DNA of 64,000 nt from Meiothermus sp. Pnk-1 (GTDB lineage: Bacteria; Deinococcota; Deinococci; Deinococcales; Thermaceae). Positions 32,615 through 35,450 of the stretch are shown here, one piece after another (position 1 is the stretch's first letter; the number at the start of each line of letters is the position of its first letter). The position numbers and the translations under genes are program-made. The notes under the pieces are model-generated. The model did no database searches, was not told the DNA's origin, and was given only the letters and a program-made list of their open reading frames with translations. The stretch spans positions 211,136-275,135 of the forward strand of contig NZ_QKOB01000006.1 in the NCBI RefSeq assembly GCF_003226535.1, in the 5' to 3' direction.

Positions 32615-34126
32615 TTAGAAGCACCCGGCATTGCCGGGGTTCACCACCTGGGCCGCGTCCACCAAGCCATAGCCGGTTTGCGGCTCCCAGCCGTTGGGCC
32701 CGTGCTGGGCGGCGCTGCGCAGGCAACGGCGCACCGCATCCAGGCGTTGGGCGGCGGGCTGGGGCTTTCCCAAAGCGTTCTGCTGGTATAGGTAAAGCGC
32801 CACCACGCTGCTGATAAAAGGGGCCGCGAACGAGGTGCCAAAGCCGTTGGCATATTCTCCTTCCTGCCGTCCGCTGAGGACGGTGATCTCGCTCCCAGGG
32901 GCCATGAATGCAAGCTCCTGACCATAGTTGGAAGCGGCGCCTTGGCTCCAAACCGCCCGCGAACGGGTCAGGTCGGTAGCCCCCACGGCGATCACCCAGG
33001 GGGAAGAGGCGGGGTAGTCTATAGCGTCGGCCCCTTCGTTGCCGCTGGCCGCTACTACCACCAATCCCTTCTGGGTGGCCTGCTCGAGCACCGCCTCCAG
33101 GTAAGGGTCACGAAAACCCCGGCTTTGGGGAGCGGCCAGGGCCAGAGAGAGGTTTAGGACCTGCGCCGGGTAAGGATTGACAAAACTCTGCCCGCCGATG
33201 GTGGTTACCCCCAAGGCGTACTCCACCGCTTGGGCGATCTGCAAAGTACCGGCCTGCCCGTGGGCGTCAAAGATCTTGAGGGGGAGTACCTGCGCCAGGT
33301 TGTAGGCTGCTCCGGCTAGCCCCCACCGGCGGTCAGTAACCGCCGCGATAACCCCGGCTACGGCGGTGCCGTGGTTGCGCCCGGCCCAGTCGCCTGGCGT
33401 AACCCGCCCCTGAACCGGCTGGGGCGCTGCCAGGTCGTCCCCCACCAGGTCCAGCCAGCTGGCAGAGGGGGTGAGGTTAGGTCTCAGATCGGAGCGTTCG
33501 GCGTAAAAGCCGGTGTCGGCGACCGCTACCACTGGCCTGGCACAGCCGGGGGTAAGCTGCCTCCAGGCTTCCTCTAGATTTAACTGCGCGAAGATAGGGC
33601 GCTGGTTGAGCACATAGTCGGGGCTATCCGGGGGAACCGCAAGGCCGGTGGGACGGTAGAGGTACTCGGGCTGGACATAACGGGCCCCACCCCGCAACAG
33701 CGCCTGTGCAGCCTCGAGCTCGGCGCCGGGGCGCACGGCGTAAAGCTGCCAGCCCTGCGCCCCCGCCAGCTGTAGGGGGCGAACCTCCAGCCGCTCGAGC
33801 TCGGGCCACGCGGCGCTTTGCAAGCGCACGCCCTCCTGGTAAACGATAACCCGTCCCGGCACGTGGGGCAGATCAAAACGCCCCACCCCCTGCACAGCCG
33901 GACGCAGCACTTCCGGTGCTGCCGCCGCCCGGAGGCACCCCCCCGCCGGCGCCAGCGGAACCTCTGCGCTTTGCAAAGCCGAGGAACAGCCCGCCAGCAG
34001 GCCCGCCCACAACAGCCATGCTCCCCACCTGGCCGCGCGCCCAAAGGTAGCGCGGGGCCCTTCCTTCAAGCCCGAAGCGCGTCGATATAACCGATGTAAC
34101 AAAGGATTTTCCCAAAGCTTACGCAC
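32615..34126 (-). CDS. subtilisin-like (S8) protease lipoprotein
   Basis: A 503-residue exported protease. The N-terminus has a basic segment, a hydrophobic core and a lipobox LLAGCSS, so the mature enzyme is probably lipid-anchored. The catalytic triad is visible as Asp in VVAVADTGFY, His in RNHGTAVAGVIAAV and Ser in FGTSFAAPFISSVVALY; the oxyanion Asn is in AASGNEG. A region of about 110 residues before the Asp may be a propeptide. GTG 34126 is chosen because AGGAGG sits at a good distance; GTG 34135 is also in frame. Start codon and Shine-Dalgarno lie in a leader with competing hairpins (see 34124-34180). Confidence 0.9.
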   Translation of the reverse strand: MRKLWENPLLHRLYRRASGLKEGPRATFGRAARWGAWLLWAGLLAGCSSALQSAEVPLAPAGGCLRAAAAPEVLRPAVQGVGRFDLPHVPGRVIVYQEGVRLQSAAWPELERLEVRPLQLAGAQGWQLYAVRPGAELEAAQALLRGGARYVQPEYLYRPTGLAVPPDSPDYVLNQRPIFAQLNLEEAWRQLTPGCARPVVAVADTGFYAERSDLRPNLTPSASWLDLVGDDLAAPQPVQGRVTPGDWAGRNHGTAVAGVIAAVTDRRWGLAGAAYNLAQVLPLKIFDAHGQAGTLQIAQAVEYALGVTTIGGQSFVNPYPAQVLNLSLALAAPQSRGFRDPYLEAVLEQATQKGLVVVAASGNEGADAIDYPASSPWVIAVGATDLTRSRAVWSQGAASNYGQELAFMAPGSEITVLSGRQEGEYANGFGTSFAAPFISSVVALYLYQQNALGKPQPAAQRLDAVRRCLRSAAQHGPNGWEPQTGYGLVDAAQVVNPGNAGCF

Positions 34127-34151
34127 CCCGACCACCTCCTGTGGTGGGGTG
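34124..34151 (-). promoter_or_regulatory. hairpin B over the start site of the S8 protease
   Basis: CACCCC plus ACCAC (34124-34135, one bulged g at 34130) pairs with GTGGT plus GGGGTG (34141-34151), an 11-bp stem. In the mRNA the five-base loop is AGGAG, the core of the Shine-Dalgarno, and the GTG start codon lies in the stem. Confidence 0.6.
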
Positions 34152-34180
34152 CAACCGGGCGGTGTTCGGCCGGTTGCACC
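34148..34180 (-). promoter_or_regulatory. hairpin A in the S8 protease leader
   Basis: GGTGCAACCGG (34148-34158) and CCGGTTGCACC (34170-34180) form a perfect 11-bp stem with an 11-base loop. It shares bases 34148-34151 with hairpin B, so the two cannot both form completely. Confidence 0.65.
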
Positions 34181-34320
34181 ACTGGCTCCCTGTGCCCCTT
34201 GGTGCCCACGTTGGGTAACACAGTTCTTCGCCTCCGAACTCCCCGCGGGTATATCCCGCTAGAGCCTGTCTACCAGTCTGCCCGGCGGGGGTTGCATCAG
34301 GGTTGTACCTATATCTCGGG
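34181..34320. other. structured region between S8 protease and dctP
   Basis: Several shorter inverted repeats lie here: AGTTC/GAACT around 34223-34240, GCGGG-TATAT-CCCGC at 34245-34259, and further GGTTGCA-like stretches near 34290 and 34311. A minus-strand frame crosses it but its product has no recognisable motif. It may be the upstream part of the protease leader or the remains of a mobile element. Confidence 0.35.
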
Positions 34321-34350
34321 TTGTCCTTAAAGCGCGCCGAATGGTAACTT
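34321..34350 (+). promoter_or_regulatory. promoter of dctP gene
   Basis: TTGTCC (34321-34326), an 18-base spacer, then TAACTT (34345-34350). Transcription would start near 34357, giving a short leader with GGAGG before the ATG at 34374. Confidence 0.5.
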
Positions 34351-34373
34351 GGGCGTACACCCAGGAGGTTCAC

Positions 34374-35450
34374 ATGCAAAGGCGTGATCTCATCAAGAAG
34401 GCGGGCGTGGGTTTGGCGGCAAGCCTCTCATACTCGGCCCTCGCCCAAGCCACCCCCCAGGTACGCTGGCGGATGGTCTCCAGCTACCCCAAGAGCCTGG
34501 ACACCCTCTACGGAGGCGCCGAGGATCTGGCCAAGCGGGTCGCCGAGCTCACCGAGGGCCGCTTCCAAATCCGCGTTTACCAGGCGGGAGAGATCGTCCC
34601 CGGAGGGCAGGTGCTGGACGCTGTCCAAGGCGGCACGGTGGAAGCGGGCCACACTTACGGACCCTTCTACGTGGGCAAGAACCCCGCCCTGGCCTTTGAC
34701 GGAGGGGTCCCCTTTGGCATGACCTACCGGCAGCACAACGCCTGGATGTACTTCGGCGGTGGGCTGGAACTGCTGCGATCCCTCTACGCGGACTACGGGG
34801 TGATCCAGTTCCCCGGGGGCAATACCGGCACCCAGATGGGGGGCTGGTTTCGCAAAGAGGTCAGGTCCTTGGCGGACCTCAAGGGCTTGCGGATGCGCAT
34901 CCCCGGCCTGGGTGGGCTGGTGATGGGGCGGCTAGGGGTGGTGCCGCAAACCCTGGCGGCGGGGGACATCTACCCCGCCCTGGAGCGCGGCGCCATTGAC
35001 GCCACCGAGTTCTCCGGACCCTATGACGATGAGAAGCTGGGCTTTTACAAGGTGGCCCGCTACTATTACTACCCCTCCTTCTGGGAGCCCTCCGCCCAGC
35101 TCTCTTTCCTCGTCTCCCAGCGGGAGTGGCAACGGCTGCCCAAAGAGTTCCAAGAAGCCTTTCAGGTGGCTGCTACCGAGGTCAACCTCACCATGATGGC
35201 CAAGTACGACGCCCAGAACCCACCCGCCCTGCAACGGCTGCTCAAAGGAGGGGTGCTCTTGCGGAAGTGGCCCCTCGAGATCATGCGCAAAGCCCAGGAG
35301 GAGGCCAAAGCCCTCTACGAGGATCAGGCGGCGAAAGACGCCACCTACCGGGAGATCTACACCAGCTACCGTAAATTCCTCGAGCTCGAGTACCGCTGGT
35401 TCTCCGTGGCCGAGCTGGGTTTCGAGCAGTTCGCTTTCCCCGGAGTATAA
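34374..35450 (+). CDS. dctP: TRAP transporter substrate-binding protein (DctP family)
   Basis: A 358-residue exported binding protein. The N-terminus MQRRDLIKKAGVGLAASLSYSALAQA reads as a Tat-like or Sec signal (RR followed by DLIKK). Family features: WRMVSSYPKSLDTLYGGAEDLAKRV, GRFQIRVYQAGEIVPGGQVLDAV, LKGLRMRIPGLGG and the domain-linking helix. The sequence resembles the Thermus TRAP proteins binding alpha-keto or hydroxy acids such as lactate, so an organic acid ligand is likely. No DctQ or DctM membrane subunits are nearby. ATG 34374 follows CAGGAGG. A large regulator gene starts 36 bp after its stop. Confidence 0.9.
   Translation: MQRRDLIKKAGVGLAASLSYSALAQATPQVRWRMVSSYPKSLDTLYGGAEDLAKRVAELTEGRFQIRVYQAGEIVPGGQVLDAVQGGTVEAGHTYGPFYVGKNPALAFDGGVPFGMTYRQHNAWMYFGGGLELLRSLYADYGVIQFPGGNTGTQMGGWFRKEVRSLADLKGLRMRIPGLGGLVMGRLGVVPQTLAAGDIYPALERGAIDATEFSGPYDDEKLGFYKVARYYYYPSFWEPSAQLSFLVSQREWQRLPKEFQEAFQVAATEVNLTMMAKYDAQNPPALQRLLKGGVLLRKWPLEIMRKAQEEAKALYEDQAAKDATYREIYTSYRKFLELEYRWFSVAELGFEQFAFPGV

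Follow-up and report, generated by a model that had tools for sequence, protein, structure and literature searches.

A probable c-di-GMP-II riboswitch with a predicted translational OFF platform in the leader of an S8 lipoprotein-protease gene of Meiothermus sp. Pnk-1

The window, a 64-kb stretch of the Meiothermus sp. Pnk-1 genome, contains on its minus strand a gene that had been read from the sequence as an S8 protease, and its Pfam match agrees with that reading. The closest relative of known structure is Tk-subtilisin, which phmmer aligns with an E value of 4e-24 across the D, H, and S motifs. The LAGC lipobox suggests that the protease is probably a lipoprotein. A scan of named genomes with the protease as the query returned distant Bacillaceae proteases as the sole matches. 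The features of the gene and its leader are as follows.

32615-34126, minus strand: S8 subtilase of 503 aa, predicted lipoprotein (LLAGCSS; Pfam PF00082, 118.7 bits)
34124-34126, minus strand: protease start codon GTG, aligned with ATG in the homologous platforms L066-L068, L070, and L103
34135-34140, minus strand: Shine-Dalgarno sequence AGGAGG, with 8-nt spacing to the GTG at 34126
34151-34124, minus strand: hairpin B, CACCCCACCAC-AGGAG-GUGGUcGGGGUG, 11 bp with one bulged C
34148-34152, minus strand: GCACC switch element at the end of the 3' arm of hairpin A, read directly from the sequence and the state energies
34180-34148, minus strand: hairpin A, GGUGCAACCGG-[11 nt]-CCGGUUGCACC, a perfect 11-bp stem
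34170-34176, minus strand: CAACCGG, counterparts of ligand contacts C68, A69, A70, C71, C72, and G73 plus position 74, placed by the GUGCAACCG motif
34244-34159, minus strand: c-di-GMP-II riboswitch aptamer, Rfam RF01786, full length (model positions 1-84, cmscan)
34259-34245, minus strand: small hairpin GCGGGATATACCCGC (GCGGG/CCCGC), directly 5' of the aptamer

Two other starts were considered for the protease. A GTG at 34135 was excluded, as its first base is also the final G of AGGAGG. A start within the aptamer was excluded on two grounds: the protease frame is one position out of phase, and the stretch from the upstream stop to 34135 has no ATG, GTG, or TTG in frame. A search upstream of the leader found no sigma-70-like promoter; the sequence directly 5' of it is kept in the sister species (L042), without clear consensus boxes. 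Beyond the leader (34309-35447), a DctP-type solute-binding gene separates the riboswitch-protease unit from a TPR-domain gene. It has no counterpart in the sister species, where the unit directly adjoins the TPR-domain gene.

An Rfam search of the window gave a single match, to RF01786, scoring 70.0 bits (E value 1.1e-13) against a gathering cutoff of 53.5 bits, and this aptamer is the only RF01786 copy in the genome. Its conserved core is intact, and the outer P1 stem carries two mismatches. The original prediction described the hairpins near the start codon and missed their cause, the aptamer directly upstream; the "further stems" that it noted up to 34260 are the complete aptamer at 34244-34159 and the small hairpin at 34259-34245. 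The sister species has the GCGG...CCGC pairing of the latter too, around a different loop. Membership in RF01786 names c-di-GMP, a biofilm signal, as the predicted ligand, which the leader would be expected to bind. As expected of a host that makes and degrades this signal, the genome has 16 GGDEF, 6 EAL, and 3 HD-GYP domain matches. The class I c-di-GMP riboswitch, RF01051, had no match in this genome, and control genomes gave none either.

We placed the ligand contacts at 34176-34170 by what we take to be the sequence numbering of structure 3Q3Z. In that structure, of the Clostridium acetobutylicum class II riboswitch, the ligand is contacted by A13, A14, U37, G39, U60, A61, and C68-A74 (PMC7288161). 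The conserved contact nucleotides that we tested (C68-G73, A61, and U37) are all present in the window, as GCAACCG at 34177-34171, A34183, and UGGGC. By the GUGCAACCG motif, the equivalents of C68-G73 fall at 34176-34171, within hairpin A, whose 5' arm GGUGCAACCGG is the conserved 3' core of the aptamer. Because this arm carries ligand-contacting nucleotides, hairpin A is a predicted anti-aptamer stem, the formation of which would dismantle the binding pocket.

Hairpins A and B and the GTG start come straight after the aptamer, as expected of the expression platform of a 5' leader riboswitch. Both hairpins proved to be as first described: a perfect 11-bp stem at 34148-34180 and, sharing the four bases 34148-34151 with it, a hairpin at 34124-34151 with AGGAG in its loop and the GTG (34126-34124) in its stem. 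An extra G-C pair lengthens hairpin B to 34152/34123, giving 12 bp with one bulge. Perfect stems of at least 11 bp with a loop of 3 to 15 nt occur just four times in the 64-kb window, hairpin A among them. When the 150 nt downstream were shuffled, the 11-nt complement to the core was matched in 0 of 200 shuffles, and of 200 shuffles of the segment 34110-34160, 199 fold less well than the native sequence (z of -3.4). The GCACC element has two alternative partners, both GGUGC: one in the aptamer (34180-34176, forming hairpin A) and an identical one around the start codon (34127-34123, forming hairpin B). Consequently, the aptamer and hairpin A are mutually exclusive, as are full A and full B. 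The use of the same pentanucleotide on both sides makes this a compact, balanced switch.

We consider it highly probable that this leader is a class II c-di-GMP riboswitch that acts as a translational OFF switch. The computed support consists of membership of the aptamer in RF01786, the mutually exclusive pairings, and, as described below, near-equal energies of the A and B states, covariation in hairpin B, and co-occurrence of riboswitch and protease. When c-di-GMP is absent, GGUGCAACCGG on the 3' side of the aptamer would be pulled into hairpin A. Hairpin A would then occupy GCACC and leave the GTG start free, with a short residual stem beside the Shine-Dalgarno loop, and translation would be ON. 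With c-di-GMP bound, the aptamer would retain GGUGCAACCGG and block hairpin A; GCACC, released from A, would pair with GGUGC at the start codon to form hairpin B, initiation would be blocked, and translation would be OFF. If control runs in this direction in vivo, as the pairings suggest, the protease would be made at low c-di-GMP, for example for release from a surface.

The original prediction had looked to the leaders of orthologous proteases for conservation of the two pairings, and these are kept in part of them. In the sister species, which has an 89% identical protease, the aptamer and both hairpins are retained, whereas 11 more distant orthologs keep the aptamer only. Eight leaders from another family, f4, which precede small exported proteins unrelated to the protease, also retain A and B, with compensatory changes. 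We aligned these eight with the leaders of the window and the sister species. Across the ten leaders, 99.2% of the cells of hairpin B are paired, compared with 34 to 55% when the pairing is slid. Two adjacent pairs switch from C-G to U-A, with nine cells changed on both sides (0 of 500 shuffles); one of them joins the first base of the start codon to its partner, GTG going with C and ATG with U. The count of double-change pairs, two, is not above that of shuffled alignments (170 of 500). The C-G to U-A change divides two sequence groups, so few independent events may lie behind the covariation.

From 34123-34152 through the start and first codons (GTGCGTAAG in L065), the window is near-identical to the f4 leaders L065, L072, and L073 of unrelated exported proteins, and this platform is missing from the closer protease orthologs in genera g2 and g3. 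Either transfer or loss may account for this distribution. Three Thermaceae leaders from genus g4 follow the same logic with another sequence: their platform pair is UUGCGCCACCUCC/GGAGGUGG, and the segment complementary to the aptamer is UUGCGCCAC; it overlaps CCACCUCC, the segment that closes GGAGGUGG.

The g4 leaders bear on the alternative that survives best, in which the leader is a c-di-GMP-II riboswitch but an ON switch, or one acting by transcription or RNA decay instead of start-codon access. In C. difficile, class II riboswitches work at the level of transcription and as ON switches (PMC6366702), so class membership alone does not give the direction of control. However, the recurrence of the same logic in the differing g4 sequences points to start-codon control, and because the aptamer and hairpin A exclude each other, a formed aptamer favors hairpin B, with the start closed. 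The protease leader also has no terminator-like site, and we dropped terminator-based control on that ground. Taken with these observations, the alternative appears unlikely.

The proposed OFF switch is tightly linked to its gene. Orthologs of the protease (E value of 1e-60 or lower) were found in 13 of the 50 genomes of the window's family, all in genera g1 to g3. Among the 22 genomes of these genera, RF01786 is present in 13, exactly those that encode the orthologous protease, and in each of them riboswitch and protease lie side by side. With phylogeny ignored, the chance of such co-occurrence is 1/C(22,13), or about 2e-6, a figure whose significance is inflated by shared ancestry. This association, the intact core, and the retention of the aptamer and both hairpins in the sister species argue against a decayed riboswitch with no present function, which we regard as very improbable, although the leader has a single copy where many relatives have tandem copies, and its outer P1 is mismatched at two positions.

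Across the phylum, 77 of 111 genomes and 25 of 31 genera carry RF01786, often as tandem pairs, and the copy number per genome reaches 21 (G097). Class II riboswitches in tandem have been described both as doublets and as triplets (PMC9481103), and Deinococcota are enriched in tandem c-di-GMP riboswitches (PMC12452182). In several f4 genomes, c-di-GMP-II aptamers lie on opposite strands, separated by about 100 to 300 nt, and seem to drive divergent genes that encode exported proteins (G009:C1:142566-142999, G016:C9:2017-2322, G011:C2:232069-232455, and others). At L044, L046, L069, L071, and L074, the genes downstream of the riboswitch are of other kinds, including those for a calcineurin-like phosphoesterase and a DUF4388 protein.

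State energies were computed for an RNA segment that begins at the aptamer core and ends shortly after the start codon, with the pseudoknot left out; the folding model cannot represent it. For the window, states A and B have energies of -34.2 and -33.3 kcal/mol at 37°C and of -23.3 and -23.6 kcal/mol at 55°C. Between 37 and 65°C, its start codon is 63 to 87% unpaired in state A; in state B, and also when the core is kept out of pairing to mimic the bound aptamer, the figure is 0%. The ten leaders behave alike at 55°C, with an unpaired probability of the start of 0.69 to 0.99 in state A and about 0 in the B and holo-like states. The gap between A and B at that temperature is at most 0.7 kcal/mol in nine of the ten and 1.5 kcal/mol in L072. 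Five of the leaders use GCACC/GGUGC, and five use GCAUU with AAUGC or GAUGC; near-equal modeled energies despite these differing elements would fit a balance that is tipped by ligand. Unconstrained minimum-energy folds at 37 to 55°C retain hairpin B together with a shortened A, which suggests that, at equilibrium, about half of the RNA at most would occupy the ON state and that reaching it may require cotranscriptional folding.

By nearest-neighbor model energies, the start codon stays fully paired in hairpin B up to at least 65 to 70°C, with an unpaired probability near 0 for B at 65°C and of at most 0.04 for the free fold at 70°C. Thus, of the original proposal of a switch or thermometer, the switch, in which A frees and B closes the start, stands, now under predicted ligand control by the aptamer. 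A thermometer in which B melts at growth temperature to expose the start, an idea suited to a thermophile with its Shine-Dalgarno sequence in a hairpin loop, is made very improbable by a start stem that does not melt in the model from 37 to 70°C and by the complete ligand aptamer.

The 11 orthologs in g2 and g3 (L043, L045, L049, L050, L054-L057, L059, L060, and L092) lack hairpins A and B, and no anti-aptamer complement was found in their leaders (6 nt at most, chance level). Instead, in 11 of 11 the protease frame is in phase with GTGGTGCAACCGG of the aptamer, and the distance from aptamer to Cys is 78, 90, 105, or 111 nt, each a multiple of three. In four of these genomes, the last in-frame stop is inside the aptamer, and from the aptamer to the signal peptide there is no other ATG, GTG, or TTG; among the four, substitutions fall preferentially at third positions, and the protease frame is the one in which synonymous changes are most common. 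A plausible Shine-Dalgarno sequence, GGGGAG, lies 3 to 6 nt upstream of the in-aptamer GTG. An alternative start, an upstream GTG at -63, is likewise inside the aptamer. With a start within GGGGAG-CCA-GUG-GUG-CAA-CCG, the first codons would double as the ligand-binding strand. In the window's genus, the protease frame is shifted by one relative to the aptamer, and the start is located after A and B. Orthologous c-di-GMP-II-controlled S8 proteases thus probably use two mechanisms, an A/B platform in the window's genus and an in-aptamer GTG start in g2 and g3, where c-di-GMP would occlude initiation directly. These relatives allow a natural comparison, on one gene, between a separate platform and an in-aptamer start. 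A search of the open-access literature found no papers on start codons within aptamers, and none linking a subtilase to a c-di-GMP-II riboswitch.

The riboswitch class itself is already known and is typical of clostridia and Deinococcus (PMC9495176); the window adds a member with a predicted translational OFF platform. It is a full-length match above the cutoff, with the conserved core and ligand-contact strand of the class. The C. difficile examples are transcriptional ON switches, one with a group I ribozyme, whereas that of the window is a predicted translational OFF switch before a subtilase. A closer parallel in outcome is the C. difficile protease PPEP-1/ZmpI, which is under a class I c-di-GMP riboswitch and removes adhesins at low c-di-GMP (PMC11477304). 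In both cases a secreted protease is repressed at high c-di-GMP, as predicted for the window; the C. difficile circuit has a class I switch, a metalloprotease, and control of transcription, whereas the window has a class II switch, an S8 protease, and predicted control of translation. In thermophilic Deinococcota, the locus would be a direct tie between c-di-GMP and a protease anchored at the surface, and the protease is a testable candidate for c-di-GMP-controlled surface remodeling or detachment. SAM-II and preQ1-II riboswitches hold ribosome-binding elements in the aptamer itself. The predicted g2/g3 layout resembles them in having the start codon and the Shine-Dalgarno-like GGGGAG inside the aptamer, and differs from them in aptamer fold and ligand and in that the start codon and codons 2 to 4 would contain the ligand-contact strand; the window itself differs further in having its separate A/B platform.
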